A stretch of 43,741 nucleotides of DNA from Sulfurimonas sp. MAG313 (GTDB taxonomy: Bacteria; Campylobacterota; Campylobacteria; Campylobacterales; Sulfurimonadaceae): contig NZ_JAEMVE010000036.1 of assembly GCF_029216045.1 (NCBI RefSeq), forward strand, positions 1 through 43,741. Reading direction: 5' to 3'. Under the pieces are notes generated by a model, which did no database searches, was not told the DNA's origin, and was given only the letters and a program-made list of their open reading frames with translations. The position numbers and the translations under genes were made by a program. Within the stretch, counting starts at the first letter, position 1. Every line of letters begins with the position of its first letter. Below, piece after piece: positions 30,267 to 43,437 of the stretch.

Positions 30267-31751
30267 CTCAACTTTCGCACATAAATTCCACTAAATTCAC
30301 AGACTAAAACTAAGTATTAAAGCCCATAAATAGCCACTTTACAGTATAATTTTGTTACCACAACTCAATTAATAAAGGCTATTTTATGGAACTTGAAAAT
30401 TATATCAACTATGCAATGAAGAGTATATTAAAAAATCCTATTCTTGAGGTTTTAACCGATATAAATATTTCTAAAACACTCAAAGACAGTGGTTTTATAA
30501 AGCGTAGTACAGGTTATGCTCCTTTTCAAATAATTTTACATTTTGTATATATGCTTGTAATGCAAAAGCGTCAATCAACTTTTATAAAAAACAGTGATAA
30601 GGCCTTTGGCAAAGATGCCTATTATCGGTTTATCAAAGAAAGCCGTTATAACTGGAGAAAACTGCTGCTATTAAGTTCAGCATCTCTATTAAAAAAGATC
30701 AGACCCTTACATAAGGCAGGCGAACATAAGCTTTTAATCATTGATGATACGGTTGAAGCTAAGCGTGGTAAGTTAATTGAGGGAAGTTGTAAATACATTT
30801 GGAGTAATAAAGAACATCGAAGCATTAATGCTTTAAATATCGTATCTCTCAATTATGCTGATTCACATTCAACCTTTCAGCTTGACTTTGCAATCAAGGC
30901 CAATGACAGTTACCGTAAAAATATATCTGAATTTACAAATAAGGTGCATCATAGAAGCCATGCGTATCAACGTAAAAGTGAAATCACTAAGGGGAAGAAT
31001 CTTCTTGCTATAGAGATGCTTGAAAGGGCTTTAGATAAAGGGATAGAGGCTGATTATCTATTGGTAGACAGTTGGTACGCTAAAGCAAATTTTATTAAAC
31101 AAGCCAATGACCTTGGTATGCATGTTGTTGCAAGACTTCCCAATAACCATAAGATTTGGCACTTTAAAGGTAAATACAAGACCTTAAATGCGATGTATGA
31201 CAATTTAAAAAAGTGTCGTCATAAGTCTAAGGGTACCTACGGAAAGATATCCTATAACTACTTCGATGCGATTGTAGAGCATGGAACACTGGGTAAGGTT
31301 AAGTTGGTGTTTTTACATACCGGTAAAGATTTACTTGTGTTTATCTCTACTGATTTAACACAAGTAGGAAAAGAGATTTTAGCTACTTACAAAAAACGAT
31401 GGAATATAGAACAAGGGTATAAAGATTTACGCAGTTTGTTTAGTCTTGGGAAAGAAGAAAACAGGATTTATGAAGCCCTCATCGCAAAAATAACACTTTC
31501 TATGTTTACCTATAATATTGTGAGTTATATTAACCGCATAAAAAACGAACCACAAACGCTGGGAGAACTTTTCCGAGAACTCGAATGCGAGCTAGAAACA
31601 CTTGCGATATCTATGCAGCTTTTTATAAAAATACTTACAAAAATCTCTGAGATTAAAAATGTTGTCAAGGAAAATAAAGATTTACTCCAGATTATCGCTG
31701 TCATTAGTGCTTACACTCAAAAAGAGTTGGGGTTTATGTGCGAAAGTTGAG
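30267..31751 (+). mobile_element. Complete IS4-type insertion sequence, 1485 bp
   Basis: Perfect 19-bp terminal inverted repeats, CTCAACTTTCGCACATAAA at 30267-30285 and its complement at 31733-31751, enclose one intact transposase gene. An 8-bp direct repeat TAGGATTA flanks it. Intact ends, matching target repeats and an intact gene point to a recent insertion. The 8-bp target size fits some IS4 subgroups. It lies in the gap between the solute-binding lipoprotein gene and the CPBP protease gene, so it may change the expression of either. Confidence 0.92.
30386..31750 (+). CDS. IS4-family DDE transposase
   Basis: 454 residues, intact. DDE residues can be placed: first Asp in LLIIDDTVEAKRG (~118), second in DYLLVDSWYAKANF (~228), and Glu in YKKRWNIEQGYKDLRSL (~332), which is the IS4 Y-x2-R-x3-E signature, although the usual final Lys is Arg. 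It cuts the element out and inserts it elsewhere. The stop codon lies inside the right terminal repeat. There is no frameshift and no passenger gene. Confidence 0.93.
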   Translation: MELENYINYAMKSILKNPILEVLTDINISKTLKDSGFIKRSTGYAPFQIILHFVYMLVMQKRQSTFIKNSDKAFGKDAYYRFIKESRYNWRKLLLLSSASLLKKIRPLHKAGEHKLLIIDDTVEAKRGKLIEGSCKYIWSNKEHRSINALNIVSLNYADSHSTFQLDFAIKANDSYRKNISEFTNKVHHRSHAYQRKSEITKGKNLLAIEMLERALDKGIEADYLLVDSWYAKANFIKQANDLGMHVVARLPNNHKIWHFKGKYKTLNAMYDNLKKCRHKSKGTYGKISYNYFDAIVEHGTLGKVKLVFLHTGKDLLVFISTDLTQVGKEILATYKKRWNIEQGYKDLRSLFSLGKEENRIYEALIAKITLSMFTYNIVSYINRIKNEPQTLGELFRELECELETLAISMQLFIKILTKISEIKNVVKENKDLLQIIAVISAYTQKELGFMCES

Positions 31752-33206: not shown

Positions 33207-33314
33207 GGCTGTTTTCTTCGTTTATATAAGAGTATTGAATGAAACATATAATTTAAAACTAAAAACACATTTTAAATTTTTTGTAAGTAAATTGTCGCCT
33301 TAAGCACTCCAAAA

Positions 33315-33386
33315 TGTTATTTAATTGAAATTCAGCAGTAATAAAAGACTGAAATAATTACGCATTCAAAAAAAATGGAGAGTCAA
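33315..33386 (+). promoter_or_regulatory. Conserved leader/promoter of receptor 1
   Basis: This 72-nt stretch up to the receptor ATG matches the leader of receptor 2 (38415-38486). TGTTAT, then TAA.TGAAA, then AGTAATAA (33337-33344) occur at identical spacing in both, and AGTAATAA ends 42 nt before both ATGs. TAATAA could be the -10 element. The shared upstream block may be a promoter or regulator site; it is not a Fur or PhoB box that I recognise. Confidence 0.55.
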
Positions 33387-35537
33387 ATGAATAAGAAAAT
33401 AATTGCTTTATCTTTAGTAACAGTGATGTCACTTCTCGCTGCTGACAACACAGATACAAATTCAAGTGCTGAGAAACTTGAATCTATTTCTATTGTGGGG
33501 GACACAGATTCTCATGCAAACAATATTATTGATACTAATAGAATTGAAACATCAGGAACAGTGGCTAACCCACTTCTTCTTTTAAACAATGTTGCGGGTG
33601 TTCATGTTACTTCAGGGAGTACATTTGGTTTATATGAATATTCTAACCAAGTAAACATGCGTGGATTTAATAAAAGTCAAATTGCATTTTTAGTCGATGG
33701 TGTACCTCTTGGTTCATCTGCAACAGCGGGTGGGGCTCCTGTAAATCGTTTTGTTGAAAATGAAAATATTTCTTCAATTTCTGTTCACCAAGGTTCAGGT
33801 GCCTTATCTACACCTTCTGCAGCTGCTTTAGGTGGGTCTATCAATTATGTTACATCATTACCAGCCCAAGAAGCCTCAGTAAAAGCGTCACAAACAACAG
33901 CTTCATATAATGGTTCTAAAATCTTTGCTCGTATAGACACAGGTGACTTTGCTAAAGACACACGTGCGTATATAAGTTATTCAGAAACAACAACAAATAA
34001 ATGGAAAAATGAGGGTGAACTTAAAAGAGAACACCTTGATACAAAACTTGTTTCTAAGATAGCGGACATAGATCTTCAGTTTAACCTTTCTTGGAACAAC
34101 AGACAAGATCATGATTATTTAGATATTACAAAAGAGCAGTTTGATACATTTGGTGGAGAATTTGGCCTAAATCAAAACTGGGTAAATAATCCAGACGCGG
34201 CGTATCAAACAAGTCAAAATGCTTACAACTGGGATACATGGCAAAATGCTAGAACAGACACTTTAGCAAGTTTTAACCTTAGAGCAGACATTGGTTCTGG
34301 TGAAATTAAAGTTACTCCATACTTCCATGATCAAGCTGGAACAGGTAACTGGGCTCCAAATTATGTACTTCTTAGCGATGGGACAAAAGATTATACAAAA
34401 CAATCTTTCAGACAATCAGAATATGAAACTCAACGTTTAGGTCTTACTGTAAACTACACGGTAGATATTGGAGATCATGAACTTCTTGCAGGTCTTTGGA
34501 TGGAAGATGGAAGTCGTCAAAACAGACGTTATTGGTATAACCTAAACAACCAAGACGCAGGTTGGGTGTATAATCAAACTCCTTATCTTGAGCAATTTAA
34601 CAGAAACTTTGATACAACGTCTTTGATGGCTTACGTTCAAACAAAGTTGCACTTTTTAGATGACAATCTTGTTATTGACTTAGGGGCAAAAGCACAAACT
34701 ACTTCTGTAGAATACACTGACTTACAAAATGCTGCTAATTCTCAGCCGTCTAAGTCTTCAGATGCACCATTTTTACCTCAGCTAGGAGCAACCTACAAAC
34801 TTAATAATCAAAACCAAATCTTTGGAAGTTTTGCTATGAATTATGCACAATTACCAGATTCAGTTTATACAGGCACCTTATACGACCCAGATATTAAAAA
34901 CGAAGAGTCTACTAATATTGACTTAGGTTACCGTTTTAATGGTGATAATACAGCACTTACTGCCGCTGTATATTATGTTGACTACAAAAATAAAATTGAA
35001 TCTATTGCAACAACAGTTGGTGATATTTTTGAAGCGGGCCAATCGTATGCAGCTAATGTCGGTGGTGTTGAATCAAAAGGTTTAGAACTAAGCGGTCTTT
35101 ATAAGTTAAGCTCAGCTTGGAAACTTTCTGGAACATACACATTCACAGATGCAAGCTATACTGAAAATGTAGGCACCTTAGCTATCTCAGGAAACAGTGT
35201 TCCATTTTTACCAAAAAACATGCTAAACCTTGCTCTTGATTATAAGAAGAATGGTTTAACATTTGGTATGAATACAAAGTACAACAAAGACATGTACGGA
35301 ACACGTGATAACCTTGAAAAAATCCCTGACTTTGCTTTAGCAAATGCTTATATGGGTTATTCAAAAACTTTGAACCATTCTGTTCTTAAACAAGCAAGTC
35401 TTATGATGAACATAAACAATATATTTGACAAAAGCTACCTTGCAACGGCTGGAGCATTTGGTGATACTGTAGGAAGCTCAACATACTTTGTTGGCGCGCC
35501 AAGAACAGTTTCATTAACTCTATCAGCAACATTTTAA
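33387..35537 (+). CDS. TonB-dependent outer-membrane receptor 1
   Basis: 716 residues from ATG 33387, with GGAGAG just upstream (an ATG four codons earlier is part of that site). Signal peptide MNKKIIALSLVTVMSLLAA; a TonB-box-like LESISIVGD follows. The plug domain has IETSGTVANPLLLLNNVAGV, VNMRGFNKSQIAFLVDGVPLG and ALGGSINYVTS. The C-terminal barrel ends in a Phe (VSLTLSATF), as outer-membrane beta-barrels do. It imports a large or scarce ligand using TonB energy. It is followed 48 nt later by a secreted propeller/phosphoesterase gene, across a hairpin. Closest in size to receptor 2 at 38487, though the two proteins have diverged. The ligand is unknown. Confidence 0.93.
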   Translation: MNKKIIALSLVTVMSLLAADNTDTNSSAEKLESISIVGDTDSHANNIIDTNRIETSGTVANPLLLLNNVAGVHVTSGSTFGLYEYSNQVNMRGFNKSQIAFLVDGVPLGSSATAGGAPVNRFVENENISSISVHQGSGALSTPSAAALGGSINYVTSLPAQEASVKASQTTASYNGSKIFARIDTGDFAKDTRAYISYSETTTNKWKNEGELKREHLDTKLVSKIADIDLQFNLSWNNRQDHDYLDITKEQFDTFGGEFGLNQNWVNNPDAAYQTSQNAYNWDTWQNARTDTLASFNLRADIGSGEIKVTPYFHDQAGTGNWAPNYVLLSDGTKDYTKQSFRQSEYETQRLGLTVNYTVDIGDHELLAGLWMEDGSRQNRRYWYNLNNQDAGWVYNQTPYLEQFNRNFDTTSLMAYVQTKLHFLDDNLVIDLGAKAQTTSVEYTDLQNAANSQPSKSSDAPFLPQLGATYKLNNQNQIFGSFAMNYAQLPDSVYTGTLYDPDIKNEESTNIDLGYRFNGDNTALTAAVYYVDYKNKIESIATTVGDIFEAGQSYAANVGGVESKGLELSGLYKLSSAWKLSGTYTFTDASYTENVGTLAISGNSVPFLPKNMLNLALDYKKNGLTFGMNTKYNKDMYGTRDNLEKIPDFALANAYMGYSKTLNHSVLKQASLMMNINNIFDKSYLATAGAFGDTVGSSTYFVGAPRTVSLTLSATF

Positions 35538-35551
35538 TCTCAACACACCCT

Positions 35552-35574
35552 TCTCTCCCTAAGGGAGAGATTTT
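35552..35574 (+). terminator. Hairpin between receptor 1 and phosphoesterase 1
   Basis: An 8-bp perfect stem TCTCTCCC / GGGAGAGA with a TAA loop, followed by TTTT. It lies between cotranscribed-looking genes, so it is probably a partial terminator that lowers expression of the second gene relative to the receptor. Confidence 0.6.
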
Positions 35575-35585
35575 AAAGAGCACCC

Positions 35586-38303
35586 ATGAAAACACTTTTC
35601 CTTCTACTTTTTCTTAGTCTTAGTTTATTATCAGAACAAAACCTACCAACGAATTTTGATATTACACCCCATGCCGCTAAAGATGCAGATTTTAGATTTT
35701 TAAATCCTCATTTATCTCATAGACCAAACTATGTAGCAGGTCAAGCCGTAAGTGTAAAACTGTCAAAAGATGAAAACACACTTCTAGTTTTAACGAGTGG
35801 GTATAATCGTATGCATAACGAAGATGGTTCATTAGATATAAATGCATCCAGCGAATATGTCTTTATCTATGATGTATCTAAACACATTCCTGTTCAAAAA
35901 CAGGTTCTACATTTGGCCAATACTTTTTATGGAATTTCATGGCATCCCCTTAAAGATGCTTTTTTTGTTTCAGGGGGAGTAGATGATAAGATTTTATATT
36001 TTACAAAGACAAACGGACTTTATCATAAAGAAAAAGAGCTAAAACTTGGCCACAAGTCAGGCTTAGGTCTGCATGTCAAACCAATGGCGAGTGAACTTGC
36101 TCTTAACAAAAATGGGTCTTTATTGGCCGTATCAAATATGGAAAATGATTCAGTTAGCTTGATTGATGTAAAAAGTTTTACTCTTTTAGATGAAATAGAT
36201 TTACGTCCTGGAAAGAATGATATTAAAGATAAGGCTAAGCCCGGAGGAGAATTTCCTTTTGGACTTGCTTTTGTGCATGATAGTATTTATGTAGCAAGTA
36301 TGCGAGACTATGAGCTTGTGCAACTTAAGATTCAAGACAAAACCTTACACATACAAGAACGTATCAAGGTGGGAAGTCAGCCTACTCGTATACTTTATGA
36401 TAATGCGCATGATGTTTTGTTTGTTGCTAATAGTCGTAGTGATAGTATCAGTGCTATAAACACCAAAAACAATCATGTGATAGGCACATTTTTCACAGTA
36501 GCACCCAAGGATATCTTTAATCAAACCCATTTAAAAGGGGCTAATCCTAATGCCTTAAGACTTAAGGGAAATAGACTGTATGTGAGTAATGGGGGCACAA
36601 ATTCTATTAGTGTACTTGAACTTACTTATCATAAAACCTCACTTGAAGCGCAGGTAGTTGCCTTGTATCCGACAGGATGGTATCCTAATGACTTGGCCAT
36701 AAAAGATGATATGCTTTATGTGGTAAATGGTAAAAGTCTTTCAGGCAGTAATTCAGGAGATTGTAGAAATAATCTTTCAACCGCTGCTGATGCTAAGGCT
36801 GAGTGTACTGGTAGAAATCTTTATACATGGAAGACAAAAAAAGCAGGTTTTTTAAGTATGAAAATTCCTTCTGGTGATGAAGAAAAACGATTAACTCAGC
36901 AAGTAGCAAAAAACAATCATTTCTTTTACAAAGACAAGGTAAATGAGACCATGTCCTTTTTGCAAAAAAAGATTAAACATATTGTATATATAGTCAAAGA
37001 AAACCGAAGTTATGATCAGGTTTTAGGAGACTTAGAAATTGGAAATGGGGATAAAAGCCTAACCCTTTTTCCCCAAAGCAATACCCCTAATCATCATAAA
37101 CTTTCTACAGAGTTTGTCACCATGGATAATTTTTTAGACAGCGGTTCTTCAAGTAATGACGGATGGGTCTGGACAACATCTGGACATACTACAGAATATA
37201 CAGAAAAAAACATTGCCATAAATTACGCAAAACGAGGTCTAAGTTATGATAATGAGGGACAAAATAGAAATATACCCTTAGCCCATGCAAATTTTAAAAC
37301 AAGACAGGCTTATGATCCTAGAGTACCTGATGATGAAGACCTTTTACCAGGAACAAGAGATGTAGCTGCTGTTGATGGAGATGATGAAACTCCCTCACAA
37401 GGATATATTTGGGATAAGGCTATCAAGGCGGGTCTTGAAGTGAGAAATTATGGTTTTTATTGTGATGAAGAACGTTATTTCTTAGATAAAAATGATTCGG
37501 CCTTTGTTCGTCCATCAGAATATCCATTTAAAGAAAAAACAGTGCAAGCCTACGCTAACAAAGCCTCTTTACTTGGACGTACCGATATATATTTTCGTGG
37601 ATACGATCAAAATTATCCTGATTTATGGAGATATAATGAGTTTAAACGTGAGTTTGATGAGTATGTAAAGAAAAAAAGCTTTCCATCTTTAGTTCTTTTG
37701 CGCTTACCTCATGATCATTTTGGCTCTTTTAAAACAGCTCTTGCAGGGGTAGACACACCCTTGAAACAGATGGCAGATAATGATTATGCCTTAGGCTTAG
37801 TGGTAGAAAGTATTTCAAAAAGCCCCTTTGCCGATTCTACTTTAATCTTTGTTATTGAAGATGACGCCCAAGATGGAGCGGATCATGTAAGTTCTCATAG
37901 AAGCATTTCTTTTGTAGCAGGACCGTATATTAAAAAACACGCCCTTGTAAGTAAACGATACACCACTGTAAATGTTTTAAAGACTATAGAAAAAATCTTA
38001 GATATTGAGTCTATGGGCTTAAATGATGCACTGAGTGAAAGTATGATGGACGTCTTTGATATCAATCAAACAGGCTTTGTGTATAAGGCAGAGGTTCCAA
38101 AAATCTTATATAAAACGGACTTACTCTTACCTCAAGAATCAAAACCAAAAAACATGGCCAGCATTGAAGTGGACCATAATAGAAAGTATTGGGTAAACGC
38201 CATGCAAGGTCAAAACTTTGAGAGTGAAGACAACTTAGATACAAAAAAGTTCAATAAAGCCTTATGGAAGGGTATTACTGGAGAAAATTTTCCTCAAGAA
38301 TAA
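35586..38303 (+). CDS. Secreted YncE-like propeller / alkaline-phosphatase-family phosphoesterase, copy 1
   Basis: 905 residues. Signal peptide MKTLFLLLFLSLSLLS. Residues ~35-400 form a seven-bladed-propeller-like region with YncE-style repeats (SNMENDSVSLIDVKSF, VANSRSDSISAINTKN, VSNGGTNSISVLEL). Residues ~455-830 are an AcpA/phospholipase C-like phosphoesterase domain: KENRSYDQVLGDLE with Glu472/Asn473, Ser523 in SGSSSNDGW, LPHDHFGS, and EDDAQDGADHVSSHR with Asp759/Asp760. In AcpA the metal is bound by equivalent Glu, Asn, Ser and two Asp (family knowledge), so all core ligands are present. It probably hydrolyses an organophosphate or phosphodiester outside the inner membrane and passes the product to receptor 1. 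Its exact substrate and whether it is periplasmic or surface-exposed are unknown. Confidence 0.85.
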   Translation: MKTLFLLLFLSLSLLSEQNLPTNFDITPHAAKDADFRFLNPHLSHRPNYVAGQAVSVKLSKDENTLLVLTSGYNRMHNEDGSLDINASSEYVFIYDVSKHIPVQKQVLHLANTFYGISWHPLKDAFFVSGGVDDKILYFTKTNGLYHKEKELKLGHKSGLGLHVKPMASELALNKNGSLLAVSNMENDSVSLIDVKSFTLLDEIDLRPGKNDIKDKAKPGGEFPFGLAFVHDSIYVASMRDYELVQLKIQDKTLHIQERIKVGSQPTRILYDNAHDVLFVANSRSDSISAINTKNNHVIGTFFTVAPKDIFNQTHLKGANPNALRLKGNRLYVSNGGTNSISVLELTYHKTSLEAQVVALYPTGWYPNDLAIKDDMLYVVNGKSLSGSNSGDCRNNLSTAADAKAECTGRNLYTWKTKKAGFLSMKIPSGDEEKRLTQQVAKNNHFFYKDKVNETMSFLQKKIKHIVYIVKENRSYDQVLGDLEIGNGDKSLTLFPQSNTPNHHKLSTEFVTMDNFLDSGSSSNDGWVWTTSGHTTEYTEKNIAINYAKRGLSYDNEGQNRNIPLAHANFKTRQAYDPRVPDDEDLLPGTRDVAAVDGDDETPSQGYIWDKAIKAGLEVRNYGFYCDEERYFLDKNDSAFVRPSEYPFKEKTVQAYANKASLLGRTDIYFRGYDQNYPDLWRYNEFKREFDEYVKKKSFPSLVLLRLPHDHFGSFKTALAGVDTPLKQMADNDYALGLVVESISKSPFADSTLIFVIEDDAQDGADHVSSHRSISFVAGPYIKKHALVSKRYTTVNVLKTIEKILDIESMGLNDALSESMMDVFDINQTGFVYKAEVPKILYKTDLLLPQESKPKNMASIEVDHNRKYWVNAMQGQNFESEDNLDTKKFNKALWKGITGENFPQE

Positions 38304-38414
38304 TAAACTTTACTGAAAAAAAAGTATAAAAAATAAGACATGATTACCTTATAGAAACTTTTTTAAACACTGTAATATTATAGTAGTTTAAAGGTAATTG
38401 ATTCGTGGCTAAAG

Positions 38415-38486
38415 TGTTATCTAACTGAAAGATACTAGTAATAAATTATGATTATTATTCCTTATACAAAAAATAGGGAAGAATAA
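38415..38486 (+). promoter_or_regulatory. Conserved leader/promoter of receptor 2
   Basis: TGTTAT, TAA.TGAAA and AGTAATAA (38437-38444) stand at the same spacing and distance from the ATG as in receptor 1. The remaining sequence is AT-rich and partly conserved, ending in GGGAAG before the start. This gene therefore has its own promoter rather than depending on read-through from cassette 1. Confidence 0.55.
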
Positions 38487-40664
38487 ATGAAAAAAATGAC
38501 GGTACTATCTTTGATAGCTGCGAATGCAATAAACCTACTTGCTGCTTCTGTGGTTGATTCCAATACAACAAAATTGGATAGCCTTTCTATATTGGGAGAT
38601 GATAATACATTTCCTGTGACTGTTGTAAGGGACGCAACAATCACACAAACAATCATTAATGAGGATGCTTTAAAACGTTCTATGGGCGCGGGTGGTTCTA
38701 ACATATTTAAAGCCGTTGAGCTTGCTCCTTCTGTTAATGTGCAAACAGATGATCCTTATGGATTTACAGGTGGAACGATACGTGTACGTGGATTTACAGA
38801 AAGAGAAATAGGTTTTTCTTTAGATGGTGTTCCCTTAAATGACTCTGGAAACTTCGCGGTCTATGCTCATGAATATACGGACGCTGAAAACCTTACTTCT
38901 GTCGCTTTAACACGTGGTTCAACAAAAAGTTCTGCTCCTTTTTACAGTGATATTGGTGGTTCAATTGAGTTAATGACAAAGTATCCAAGTAAAGACTTCC
39001 AAGTAGAAATCTCTGAAAACTTTGGCTCGTTTAACATGCAAAGAGGTTTTTACCGTATCGATTCAGGTGAATTATCTACTGGAACAAAGGTATTTGCATC
39101 GTATTCTCATACGAAAGCCGATAAATGGAAGGGAGAAGGCCAAGCACCTGACTTTCGCAAACACCTTGCCTTAGGAGTAACTCAAAAATTTGGAGACGTT
39201 ATTGCTGAAATATTTTATGATTATAACGATCAGTTAAATTATGCTTATAAATATAATCAAATGAACTGGACTAAGGCTCAAGATTTTGAGACCTATTATA
39301 AAGATGATTATAGTACCAATCCAATAGATGGGGATTACTTTAAGCTAAATACTAATCCATATACCAACCATGTTATCCGTGCACGTCTTTTCATCCCAAT
39401 CTCTGACACCATGTCTATAGATGTTAAACCCTATATGTGGATGGGAAAAGGGGGTGGATATTATTCTTATGGCGCGCCTTCAAACATAACCTATAATAAC
39501 TCTTTAAACTACACAACCCGTCCAGGTGTGGTAGCTAAGCTTAATGTTGAGCTTGAAGAAACAAAGATAGAAGCAGGAATGTGGTACGAATATGCAGACC
39601 TTAGAAACTTTTCTAAGTCCTATGCGGGTACCAACGGTAATGATATTTTAGCCAACTTAAATGGTAGTTTTAATTATTGGCGTTATATTCAAGAAACAGC
39701 AACCACTACAATGGCACCCTTTGTTTCTGTAGAAAAAAAGAATATAGCAAATATCTTAGATGTCACAGCAGGATTAAAATATGCAATGGTAAATCGTGAC
39801 CTTACTTCGTATGATACAGGTGATGTTACAAGTGATTATTCAGATGATGATGTATTTAACAACCTTGGAGCTGTAAATCCAGCTAGAACTTATGATCAAA
39901 GTTACGCTATGTTACTTCCACGTCTTCAAATTGGACTTAACTTAGACAGTCCTTGGTATCCATATTTTTCTTATGCACGTACTTTTAAAGTACCTAACAA
40001 TAGCCAAGGTGGTGATCAAGACGCGAGCGTAATTACGGCTAACCTTGACCCTGAGGTTGCAGATGGATTTAATCTAGCCGCGCGTTATGTAAATGAAGAC
40101 TTTTTTCTTACTCCAGGTATTTTTTATACTATGTTTAAAGACAAAATCATCACCACTGAAATTTCTCAAGGCGTAAGCGTTCCTCAAAATGTCGGAGAAA
40201 CTTCTTCTTATGGTTTTGAGTTAGAAGCAGGTAAACGCCTTATGAAGAACATCATGTTGTATGCTTCATACGGTTATACCAAGGCGACTTATGAAAAAGA
40301 TTATGAGGCCAGAGGTACACTTATAGATGTGACAGGAAATCAGTTAGTGGATACACCTGAACATACTGTAAGTGCTTCAGTAGGATATGATAAAAAAGAT
40401 TTTTCAGCTATCTTAACAGCTAAATATATCTCTTCACGTTTTGGAGATGCAACGAATACTCAAAAAGTTGCTGGATATACACTGTTTAATGTAGATATCA
40501 AAAAAGAAATCACGCTTATGGATATGAAATTTGCTGGTTATTTATCGGTAAACAATATCTTTGATACAAAATATATAGGTAAGATTAACACAGGTGATAC
40601 TAAGGCAAACTATTATGCCGGTGTACCCTTAGCCGCTTCTGTTGGTTTAAATGCAAAGTTCTAG
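38487..40664 (+). CDS. TonB-dependent outer-membrane receptor 2
   Basis: 725 residues. Signal peptide MKKMTVLSLIAANAINLLAA, then TonB-box-like LDSLSILGD, nearly the same as LESISIVGD in receptor 1. Plug domain: GTIRVRGFTEREIGFSLDGVPLNDSGNFAVYAHEYTDAENL and DIGGSIELMTKYP. The barrel ends in VGLNAKF with terminal Phe. The plug loop is longer and different from receptor 1, so the ligand may differ. The ribosome site GGGAAG is good. Its last 14 nt overlap the next gene, unlike cassette 1 where the two are 48 nt apart, so the pair is likely translationally coupled. Confidence 0.93.
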   Translation: MKKMTVLSLIAANAINLLAASVVDSNTTKLDSLSILGDDNTFPVTVVRDATITQTIINEDALKRSMGAGGSNIFKAVELAPSVNVQTDDPYGFTGGTIRVRGFTEREIGFSLDGVPLNDSGNFAVYAHEYTDAENLTSVALTRGSTKSSAPFYSDIGGSIELMTKYPSKDFQVEISENFGSFNMQRGFYRIDSGELSTGTKVFASYSHTKADKWKGEGQAPDFRKHLALGVTQKFGDVIAEIFYDYNDQLNYAYKYNQMNWTKAQDFETYYKDDYSTNPIDGDYFKLNTNPYTNHVIRARLFIPISDTMSIDVKPYMWMGKGGGYYSYGAPSNITYNNSLNYTTRPGVVAKLNVELEETKIEAGMWYEYADLRNFSKSYAGTNGNDILANLNGSFNYWRYIQETATTTMAPFVSVEKKNIANILDVTAGLKYAMVNRDLTSYDTGDVTSDYSDDDVFNNLGAVNPARTYDQSYAMLLPRLQIGLNLDSPWYPYFSYARTFKVPNNSQGGDQDASVITANLDPEVADGFNLAARYVNEDFFLTPGIFYTMFKDKIITTEISQGVSVPQNVGETSSYGFELEAGKRLMKNIMLYASYGYTKATYEKDYEARGTLIDVTGNQLVDTPEHTVSASVGYDKKDFSAILTAKYISSRFGDATNTQKVAGYTLFNVDIKKEITLMDMKFAGYLSVNNIFDTKYIGKINTGDTKANYYAGVPLAASVGLNAKF

Positions 40665-43437
40665 TCAAGCCATCCCTTCTTATGAAGGGCGTGGGTTTAT
40701 AAAAGCACTTAGCCTCGTGCTTCTTATGCTTACAAAGCTTCTTGCCTTTGAAAGTACACCCTTACCCACAGGTTTTGATATCTCAGCTTCATTAACACAA
40801 CATTCCTCTGCCTTACTTAATCCTCACCTTCAAGAATATCCTAACTATACAGCAGGACAAGCCGTTTCAATTGAACTTAACAAAGACAAGTCCAAGGCAG
40901 CCATACTCACAAGTGGGTATAACCTTCTTTATGATAAAAATGGCAATGTTGATAAAGACAATTCTACTGAGTACTTATTTATCTACGATATTCGTGAAGA
41001 TGAGGCAATACAAAAGCAGGTAATAAAAGTACCCAATACCTTTTATGGTTTACGCTGGCATCCAAAAGAAGATGCTCTATTTGTATCGGGCGGCAAAGAT
41101 GATTTTATTTACCGTTATGATGCAGGTGAAAATGGGTATACGCTTACTCAAAAAATTGATCTTCATCATGATAAGGTTCTGAAGAAAGTTGACCCAATGG
41201 TAGCTGAGTTTGAATTTTCTTTAGATGGGAAGTTTTTAGTAGTTGCCAATATGGAAAATGATTCTCTCACCTTAATAGATGTAAAAAGTTCAAGTATCCT
41301 TGATGAAATCGACCTTCATTTAGACAGCACAGACTTAGAAAAATCTGGAGGAAGCTATCCCTTTGGTGTGGCTATAACAAAAGAAAATACGGTGTATGTC
41401 AGCAGTATGCGAGACAATGAGCTTATAAAACTACAAATTAAAGGTAAAAAGCTAAAGATTATAAAACGTATAAAGGTAGGAAGTCAGCCAACACGTTTGC
41501 TCTACCTAAAGCACACCAACGAACTTTTTATATGTGAAAGCCGAAGCGATAGTATACGTGTGATAAACACCAAAAACGACACAACAAAGACCCGTTTTAA
41601 CACACTCGCTCCTAAAAGGTATTATACTAATAAAAAAAATCTTAAGGGCGCTAATCCTAATGCTATGACACTCTCAAAAGACGGCGATAAGCTGTATGTA
41701 AGCAATGGGGGAACAAATAGTATCGCTTCGTTTACCTTAACACGTAAAGAAGAAAGCTTAAAAGTACACTTTGACACTTTAATTCCTACCCAATGGTATC
41801 CTAGTGCCCTCGTAGTCAAAGAAGACATTTTATTTGTGCTTAACAGTAAAAGTCTTTCCGGTGCCAATCTTAAGGGATGTCGTAAAAACGTGGGTACAAA
41901 CTATAAGATTACTAAAGAATGTAAGGCAAATAATGAATATGTTTGGCAAAGTAAAAATTCATCCCTAGAAAGAATTATCCTCCCTAAAGAAAAAGAGTAT
42001 GAAGCTTCTACCCTCGCTGTTTTAAAAAATAATAAGATGCGAAGTAACGCCCTGAAAAAAAACCAAAATGAACTTATGGATTTTTTACGTACTAAGATTA
42101 AACATGTCATTTATGTGGTAAAAGAAAACCGAACCTTTGATCAGGTTCTTGGAGATTTAGAAAAAGCTAATGCCGATTCAAACCTAACTCTTTTTCCTGA
42201 AAGCATTGTCCCCAATCATTATGCCTTAGCACGTAATTTTGTCACCATAGATAACTTTATGGCAAGTGGTTCATGCAGTGGGGATGGATGGGCATGGATA
42301 ACCGCGGCTCGAAGCACCCAATATCTTGAGATGATGATGCCTATCTTATACGCGCACCGTGGAACTAGCTATGATGTTGAAGGGCATAATCGAAATATAC
42401 CCGTAGGATTAGATTCCTTAGCCTTAAGAAATGAAAATAATCCTCAAACTAAAACACTCAACATGAAGTTACACGGAACCGCTGATGTAGCAGCGCCTGA
42501 TGGTCCTGATGAAGAAGCAGCAACGGGATACTTGTGGAATGCAGCCTTAAGAAAAAATCTTCATATACGTAATTATGGATTTTTTTGTAACAACAGCCGG
42601 TATTTTTTAAATGAAAAAGATAAAAATTATTTACTACCACACCAAAATTCTTATGCTCTTTCTTATAAACAGTCCTTCCCTAATAAAAAAGAGCTCTTAG
42701 AGGTTACAGATCCTTATTTTCGAGGTTATGATATGAGATATCCTGACTTATGGCGCGTAAATGAATGGAAAAGAGAATATAAAGGTTTTATAGCCACAAA
42801 AAACATGCCAAACCTTATGATGGTTCGTTTACCCCATGACCATTTTGGAGGGTTTAGCACTGCCTTAGCGAAGGTAAACACTCCTTTAAAACAAATGGCA
42901 GATAATGATTACGCCTTAGGTAAACTCGTTGAAACTGTAGCTAAAGGCCCCTATAAAGATTCCACACTTATTTTTGTAACTGAAGATGACGCTCAAAATG
43001 GAGCAGATCATGTGAGTGCACAAAGAACACTAGCCTATATAGTCGGTCCTTATGTAAAACAAGGCGCGATAATTTCAAAGCATTACACCACCGTGCATTT
43101 AATTAAAACTATGGAATCTATCTTAGGATTAGATGCCTTAAACATTAATGATGCAAGTGTCAATCCTATGTATGAGGTTTTTGATAAAAGCCAAATCAAC
43201 TGGAGCTATAAGGCAAAAATAGCAGATATTTTGTACACAACCGAGTTAGATTTACCCAAAAGAGATAAAAAGCTAAAAGTACCAAAAGATAGAACTAGCC
43301 AGTATTGGGAAGACGCCATGAAAAATCAAAACTTTGACAGTGAAGACCAACTGGATGAAAAAGCCTTTAATAAGGCATTGTGGGAAGGGATAAAAGGAAA
43401 AAACTTAGCCAAAGGAGCTACTAAACAAGACCACTAA
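40651..43437 (+). CDS. Secreted YncE-like propeller / alkaline-phosphatase-family phosphoesterase, copy 2
   Basis: 928 residues from ATG 40651, overlapping receptor 2; the next in-frame starts would destroy the signal peptide, so this start is kept although its n-region is long (~18 residues) and it contains a hairpin. Propeller (~50-430) with VANMENDSLTLIDVKSS, ICESRSDSIRVINTKN and VSNGGTNSIASF. Phosphoesterase domain with Glu492/Asn493 (KENRTFDQ), Ser543 (SGSCSGDGW), LPHDHFGG and Asp779/Asp780 (EDDAQNGADHV). The metal core is intact, but the His of the DHVSSHR motif in copy 1 is Gln791 here (DHVSAQR). It is clearly a paralogue of copy 1. The change could alter specificity or rate; loss of activity is not shown. 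Confidence 0.85.
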   Translation: MQSSSQAIPSYEGRGFIKALSLVLLMLTKLLAFESTPLPTGFDISASLTQHSSALLNPHLQEYPNYTAGQAVSIELNKDKSKAAILTSGYNLLYDKNGNVDKDNSTEYLFIYDIREDEAIQKQVIKVPNTFYGLRWHPKEDALFVSGGKDDFIYRYDAGENGYTLTQKIDLHHDKVLKKVDPMVAEFEFSLDGKFLVVANMENDSLTLIDVKSSSILDEIDLHLDSTDLEKSGGSYPFGVAITKENTVYVSSMRDNELIKLQIKGKKLKIIKRIKVGSQPTRLLYLKHTNELFICESRSDSIRVINTKNDTTKTRFNTLAPKRYYTNKKNLKGANPNAMTLSKDGDKLYVSNGGTNSIASFTLTRKEESLKVHFDTLIPTQWYPSALVVKEDILFVLNSKSLSGANLKGCRKNVGTNYKITKECKANNEYVWQSKNSSLERIILPKEKEYEASTLAVLKNNKMRSNALKKNQNELMDFLRTKIKHVIYVVKENRTFDQVLGDLEKANADSNLTLFPESIVPNHYALARNFVTIDNFMASGSCSGDGWAWITAARSTQYLEMMMPILYAHRGTSYDVEGHNRNIPVGLDSLALRNENNPQTKTLNMKLHGTADVAAPDGPDEEAATGYLWNAALRKNLHIRNYGFFCNNSRYFLNEKDKNYLLPHQNSYALSYKQSFPNKKELLEVTDPYFRGYDMRYPDLWRVNEWKREYKGFIATKNMPNLMMVRLPHDHFGGFSTALAKVNTPLKQMADNDYALGKLVETVAKGPYKDSTLIFVTEDDAQNGADHVSAQRTLAYIVGPYVKQGAIISKHYTTVHLIKTMESILGLDALNINDASVNPMYEVFDKSQINWSYKAKIADILYTTELDLPKRDKKLKVPKDRTSQYWEDAMKNQNFDSEDQLDEKAFNKALWEGIKGKNLAKGATKQDH
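40674..40689 (+). other. Hairpin in the 5' end of phosphoesterase 2
   Basis: CCCTTC / GAAGGG with a TTAT loop, 10 nt after the receptor 2 stop, but within the coding start of the next gene. It occupies the position corresponding to the hairpin of cassette 1 and may reflect a shared control element later absorbed into the reading frame. Confidence 0.4.

Follow-up and report, generated by a model that had tools for sequence, protein, structure and literature searches.

Two TonB-dependent receptor genes near the end of a Sulfurimonas contig are each followed by a gene for an exported protein that joins a beta-propeller to a phosphoesterase domain, raising the question of what such receptor and enzyme pairs do, and on what substrate. 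The analyses described here suggest that the gene pairs most likely permit life on organic phosphorus under phosphate scarcity.

Organization of the locus

The window analysed is the whole of contig NZ_JAEMVE010000036.1 (43,741 b), from a draft genome (G000) of 2.54 Mb in 246 contigs, with a completeness of 95% and a contamination of 5.9%. It carries four intact ORFs on the forward strand, in the order receptor, enzyme, receptor, enzyme, with nothing encoded between them: TBDR1 (33375-35537, 720 aa), PPE1 (35586-38303, 905 aa), TBDR2 (38487-40664, 725 aa) and PPE2 (40651-43437, 928 aa). The domain content of all four was confirmed by profile searches, as the first-pass annotation had described for two receptor genes each followed by a 905-928 residue propeller/phosphoesterase protein. 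Upstream lie ordinary chromosome genes (gyrA, semialdehyde dehydrogenase, uroporphyrinogen decarboxylase), and the contig ends about 300 b past PPE2.

A hairpin is predicted between the TBDR1 and PPE1 genes (35552-35570, forward strand; RNA fold -12.9 kcal/mol, z=-2.2), where it is a possible attenuator, and another between TBDR2 and PPE2 (40667-40697, forward strand; -15.6 kcal/mol, z=-1.7). Hairpins 3' of the receptor gene were also found in four other loci (L007, L009, L010 and L058), the z-scores being individually modest (-0.8 to -3.6), and may make enzyme expression lower than receptor expression. The annotated start of PPE2 (40651) overlaps TBDR2 by 14 nt and lies upstream of the hairpin. 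Translation probably begins about 50-85 nt further 3', just before the signal peptide.

Domain analysis of the receptors and enzymes

Both receptors contain Plug (PF07715; 45.5 bits for TBDR1 and 37.2 bits for TBDR2) and barrel (PF00593; 144.6 and 108.3 bits) domains that exceed the Pfam cut-offs. Their best receptor profile matches are siderophore receptors, at scores below cut-off. TonB-dependent transducers are defined by an N-terminal signalling extension of 70-80 residues (PMC2729926). The Plug begins at residue 47-49 in TBDR1 and TBDR2, which therefore lack the extension, and a surface-signalling role was rejected. PqqU-like uptake of PQQ was also rejected, TBDR2 scoring 75 bits against an NCBIfam equivalog cut-off of 1200 bits.

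The two enzymes, termed PPEs, consist of a signal peptide-like leader, a YncE/YVTN-type propeller (residues ~35-382 of PPE1) and a PF04185 phosphoesterase domain (~455-905), the latter scoring 32.7 and 34.2 bits in the two PPEs against a gathering cut-off of 23. The top PDB fold match of the propeller is E. coli YncE (7seu, E=7.8e-14), while scores against the NCBIfam YncE equivalog (37-38 bits) fall below its 400-bit cut-off. A profile of 13 PPE members matches AcpA (2d1g, E=2e-7). In this alignment, PPE1 residues E472, N473, D759 and D760 correspond to AcpA E43, N44, D386 and D387, the metal ligands of that enzyme; they are invariant in 13 of 13 homologues and conserved in PPE2. This conservation suggests that the PPEs are metal enzymes and belong, within the alkaline-phosphatase superfamily, to the AcpA/PLC branch.

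The region of the AcpA nucleophile (Ser175) does not align with PPE, and the conserved S523 is a candidate only, the model being of low confidence. The full-length AlphaFold model of the PPE was good for the propeller and poor for the phosphoesterase; a model of the latter domain on its own was weak (pLDDT 58), and the structures that headed its fold matches were RePLC and AcpA. The PPE N-termini are plain signal-peptide-like leaders, without a lipobox or surface anchor. For the propeller, a role in holding the substrate or in docking the enzyme is probable.

Apparent separate origins of the two units

The first-pass annotation had interpreted the two units as a tandem duplication of one cassette. 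PPE1 and PPE2 are 49% identical over 892 alignment columns, and PPE1 shares 68-70% identity with PPEs of two other genera. TBDR1 and TBDR2 are 25% identical and are placed apart in the receptor tree; receptors from another genus share 68-71% identity with TBDR1, and TBDR1 orthologues in seven other genomes of the family range from 36 to 71%. Constraining the paired proteins to be sisters was rejected for both the PPEs (AU p=0.0002) and the receptors (3e-37), and the duplication was discarded. Because of this result and the higher identities to proteins of other genera, the two units look separately assembled or separately acquired.

The likeness of the leaders noted in the same annotation was borne out. 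A common leader, TGTTATyTAAyTGAAAN6AGTAATAAA, occurs at 33315-33345 and 38415-38445, with 24 of 31 positions identical. A search of the 2.54 Mb genome with TGTTATYTAAYTGAAAN6AGTAATA, allowing up to three mismatches, retrieved these two sites only, with none for reversed-pattern controls. The likeness of the leaders may reflect shared regulation.

Linkage of the receptor to phosphoesterases

The occurrence of both genes is patchy. PPE is present in 5 of 228 genomes of the family and TBDR1 in 8 of 228, the window's genome included in each count; the remaining five genomes of the genus to which the window belongs had neither. Across a phylum sample PPE was detected in 2 of 397 genomes, one being the window's and the other distant. 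Such a pattern would be expected from horizontal transfer or repeated loss. A DDE-type transposase gene (30386-31750), followed by genes for a CPBP protease and a ceramidase-like membrane protein, lies just upstream of cassette 1, so that the patchy locus may stand in mobile or rearranged surroundings.

Excluding the window's genome, TBDR1 (seven genomes) and PPE (four genomes) share three of 227 genomes (p=7e-5), and in G022, the fourth genome with PPE, a cut receptor gene lies upstream. Several relatives are MAGs or fragmented drafts. Receptor and PPE genes are adjacent in four further Campylobacterota loci.

Exported phosphoesterases adjoin TBDR1 in 8 of 8 genomes, and the enzymes vary: PPE alone (G000), PPE with PhoD (G021), PPE with PhoD and PhoX (G074), PPE with PhoA (G112), PC-PLC (TIGR03396) with PhoX (G113, and G152, where the PC-PLC gene is cut), PC-PLC (TIGR03396; G212), and GDPD with PhoA and an NPP-like enzyme (G154). 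None was found beside control receptors, which are TBDR2-like and lie outside the TBDR1 group (0 of 5 loci). Most TBDR1 loci also encode energizers, in the arrangement DUF3450-TtpC/ExbB-ExbB-ExbD-TonB-TPR or ExbB-ExbD-TonB. The closest relatives of TBDR2 within the family are about 30% identical, and their loci lack phosphatases; these distant relatives are clustered with several receptor genes and with genes of transport type.

A receptor about 70% identical pairs with PPE in certain genomes, elsewhere with PC-PLC or with GDPD and PhoA. PPEs are partnered by outgroup receptors (G021, G074) as well as by TBDR1 and the G112 receptor; PC-PLC and GDPD partners are restricted to one derived receptor clade. 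This comparison suggests that the receptor retains its job while the enzyme is swapped. The first-pass annotation had proposed an enzyme dedicated to its own receptor. A functional unit of receptor and enzyme is supported by the co-occurrence in the family and by neighbouring genes in further loci and phyla; a strictly dedicated pair is disfavoured, since like receptors occur with differing enzymes.

Further proteins were observed in these loci. Homologous proteins of 565-568 aa that match no Pfam family are encoded in two PPE loci (L010, 5335-7032; L009, 7407-9113); one of them has a weak TonB-copper receptor match, and they are possibly a new outer-membrane part of PPE loci. Beside a PhoX gene, a protein of 563 aa that weakly matches cytochrome P460 is encoded (L059, 7753-9444), and L060 and L061 encode a protein of like size at the equivalent position.

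Receptor-PPE pairs in other phyla

The PPE gene lies 82 nt 3' of a TonB receptor gene in Emticicia. In Hymenobacter tibetensis it lies 37 nt 3' of a gene annotated as a "carboxypeptidase regulatory-like domain-containing protein", whose size is typical of proteins resembling TonB receptors; a gene annotated as a TonB-dependent receptor lies one gene beyond. In Anaeromyxobacter the PPE and receptor genes are divergent, and in a Terriglobia MAG PPE is upstream of a TonB-type barrel gene. Hymenobacter canadensis carries PPE 3' of a Na/Pi symporter, and no receptor was seen near PPE in the loci examined from Paraburkholderia, Nostoc and G434. The pairing is thus recurrent, not universal, in Campylobacterota, Bacteroidota, Myxococcota and Acidobacteriota. 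An absence of co-occurrence in other genomes was the finding that the first-pass annotation had said would speak against its reading; the search it suggested instead found co-occurrence in the family and in the other three phyla.

Pho-box-like repeats in the promoters

PhoB boxes are 11-nt direct repeats (PMC4415409). A Pho-box matrix was derived by unsupervised motif search from 12 pst promoters of other genomes of the family, yielding (GTAAY N6)x3. Twenty receptor, enzyme and energizer promoters outscored 81 control upstream regions with this matrix (p=1.3e-8), the loci being related and the promoters not fully independent. The PPE promoter of G074 reached 22 bits, compared with a control maximum of 9.4.

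In the window, the promoter and leader of cassette 2 (38365-38486, forward strand) contain seven in-phase 11-bp units, six of which start with GT. This TBDR2 leader scored 7.5 bits with the pst-trained matrix (p=0.04; 2 of 81 controls were as high), and none of 5000 shuffles equalled it in an 11-bp phase test. The promoter and leader of cassette 1 (33290-33374, forward strand) contain possible PhoB-type 11-bp repeats (GTTAT..GAAAT..GTAAT). With the pst-trained matrix the TBDR1 leader fell short of significance (p=0.23), and this blind matrix weakened the Pho claim for the window's TBDR1 promoter. A looser test with (GTWAY N6)x3, a motif chosen by eye, gave 14/15 (0 of 300 shuffles). The tie of the TBDR1 leader to Pho regulation is therefore drawn from this loose test and from the leader shared with cassette 2.

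Genes for PhoU, a PhoB-like regulator and a histidine kinase lie together elsewhere in G000, with a strong Pho box (17.9 bits). On the 9 kb of contig C37 read around them (L077), no Pst genes were seen. PstC was not found in the G000 genome, whose assembly is incomplete, so that a gap is possible; gaps could likewise hide further cassettes.

Proposed function

We consider it reasonably probable that the locus is a phosphorus-scavenging one, in which two receptor and enzyme units are switched on at starvation by a PhoB-type regulator, import phosphate esters and cleave them in the periplasm. The substrate, which the first-pass annotation had left open, can be narrowed as to class: it is probably organic phosphate, because all TBDR1 orthologues adjoin exported phosphoesterases, many with Pho-box promoters. 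In this pathway, phosphate starvation would activate the units through a PhoB-type regulator, as the Pho-box-like repeats suggest. The TonB-dependent receptor would draw into the periplasm an organic phosphate ester whose size or scarcity rules out uptake by porins; there the exported PPE would cleave it, releasing phosphate for inner-membrane uptake. The second unit combines a related enzyme with a different receptor, and on account of that receptor probably serves a second ligand. Several observations count against scavenging: the TBDR1 promoter score, the only modest TBDR2 score and the missing PstC, together with the sub-cut-off siderophore matches, the phosphatase-free loci of the TBDR2 relatives and the PPEs without receptors.

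Alternatively, in the order that the first-pass annotation had pictured, a released or surface-exposed PPE would split the ester outside the cell and the receptor would take up the product. GspD-like secretins are encoded in G000 and its relatives, leaving room for extracellular action of the PPEs, and the alternative partner PC-PLC plausibly attacks outside lipids. In Pseudomonas an alkaline phosphatase leaves the cell through the Hxc type II system, from a region that carries exbB2/exbD2 (PMC2729926). Set against these points, the PPE leaders are plain and signal-peptide-like, and the partner enzymes differ in product although the receptor is about 70% identical. Phosphate and small alcohols, the products of cleavage, cross porins and require no TonB receptor. 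For the reasons of leader type and porin passage, import before cleavage is favoured, and the reverse order appears unlikely.

We regard as still less likely the import of a metal complex (iron, calcium or zinc), as enzyme cofactor or metal supply, with the phosphoesterase stripping metal-holding phosphate. The siderophore-type profile matches and the transport-type clusters of the distant TBDR2 relatives point in this direction, and alkaline phosphatases require metals; but TBDR1 orthologues are constantly found with phosphoesterases in the loci examined, the promoters carry Pho-box repeats, and PF04185 enzymes, PhoA, PhoX and PhoD use different metals. That the genes are chance neighbours of separate function, as the receptorless PPEs of several phyla could suggest, is highly improbable given the family co-occurrence, the phosphoesterase linkage of 8/8 against 0/5, adjacency repeated in four phyla and two adjoining units with a common leader.

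Returning to phosphorus scavenging, a broader and more speculative proposal is that Campylobacterota might possess a modular outer-membrane organophosphate uptake system, with a conserved receptor, exchangeable hydrolases (PPE, PC-PLC, GDPD/PhoA) and its own DUF3450-TtpC-ExbBD-TonB motor, which would supplement or replace Pst. The YncE propeller would then capture the ligand or serve for docking, passing the ester on from the receptor to the enzyme. We advance this version tentatively. If scavenging is correct, TonB-driven organic phosphorus import, for which the case has so far been made mainly with expression data from Flavobacterium, would extend to Campylobacterota. A receptor conserved beside differing hydrolases would also open a way to the ligand of a non-siderophore TonB receptor, through the substrates common to those enzymes, and a first role would be assigned to widespread, apparently uncharacterised propeller/phosphatase fusion proteins.

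Comparison with known systems

The first-pass annotation knew of no characterised system with this pairing. Closest among known systems are the Pus/TBDT loci of Flavobacterium, which are Pi-repressed and combine a receptor and phosphoesterases; the present locus is a version without SusD and with exchangeable enzymes. As described for Flavobacterium (PMC8115612), Pus comprises TBDT/SusCD and phosphatase loci with transporters induced only by Pi depletion; organic phosphate transport was apparently inferred from expression and co-location, and import followed by periplasmic cleavage was proposed. The two systems share TonB-dependent outer-membrane transporter genes set with exported phosphomono- or diesterases, phosphate scarcity is the trigger in Flavobacterium and the likely one here, and some Pus loci (the 3-phytase locus) have a TBDT without a named SusD. 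Plant-associated Bacteroidetes are also said there to lack PstSABC, as the draft assembly of G000 apparently lacks Pst. The present locus differs from Pus as there described in its Campylobacterota host, its propeller-AcpA/PLC fusion enzyme and receptors without a CarboxypepD domain. No SusD-type gene was found between the four window genes or in the Campylobacterota loci read, and the window locus is therefore not PusCD. Such loci are known from Bacteroidetes; the present version and its Campylobacterota host appear new. Searches for literature on receptor/phytase clusters returned little.

Other systems resemble parts of the locus. In the Caulobacter ElpS-Cc0171 locus, an exported protein made under phosphate starvation is encoded next to a TonB-dependent receptor, and the authors propose a role in phosphate uptake (PMC2996285). 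Unlike PPE, ElpS is a lipoprotein in which no domain is known, and it seems to have no phosphatase function of its own; the locus adjoins T2SS genes, and the receptor gene was expressed in rich and poor media (PMC2996285). The proteins that PGAP names "bifunctional YncE family protein/alkaline phosphatase family protein" have the two-domain architecture and near full-length homology to PPE (34% identity to a Paraburkholderia member); they are apparently uncharacterised in the literature found, and several lack an adjoining receptor. In E. coli, the TonB receptor gene pqqU adjoins the propeller gene yncE, but YncE has no phosphoesterase domain and PqqU imports PQQ. The sphingomonad organophosphate hydrolase-TonB complex likewise ties an organophosphate enzyme to TonB-dependent transport and phosphate supply, but with an unrelated PTE/OPH enzyme family and in a membrane complex with ExbB/ExbD/TonB (PMC7142613).

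In G000, a lipoprotein-like protein of 709 aa that weakly matches a beta-helix is encoded divergently from a PhoB-like regulator gene (L076, 6485-8614). It recalls the Flavobacterium low-Pi lipoproteins with polygalacturonase homology (PMC8115612).
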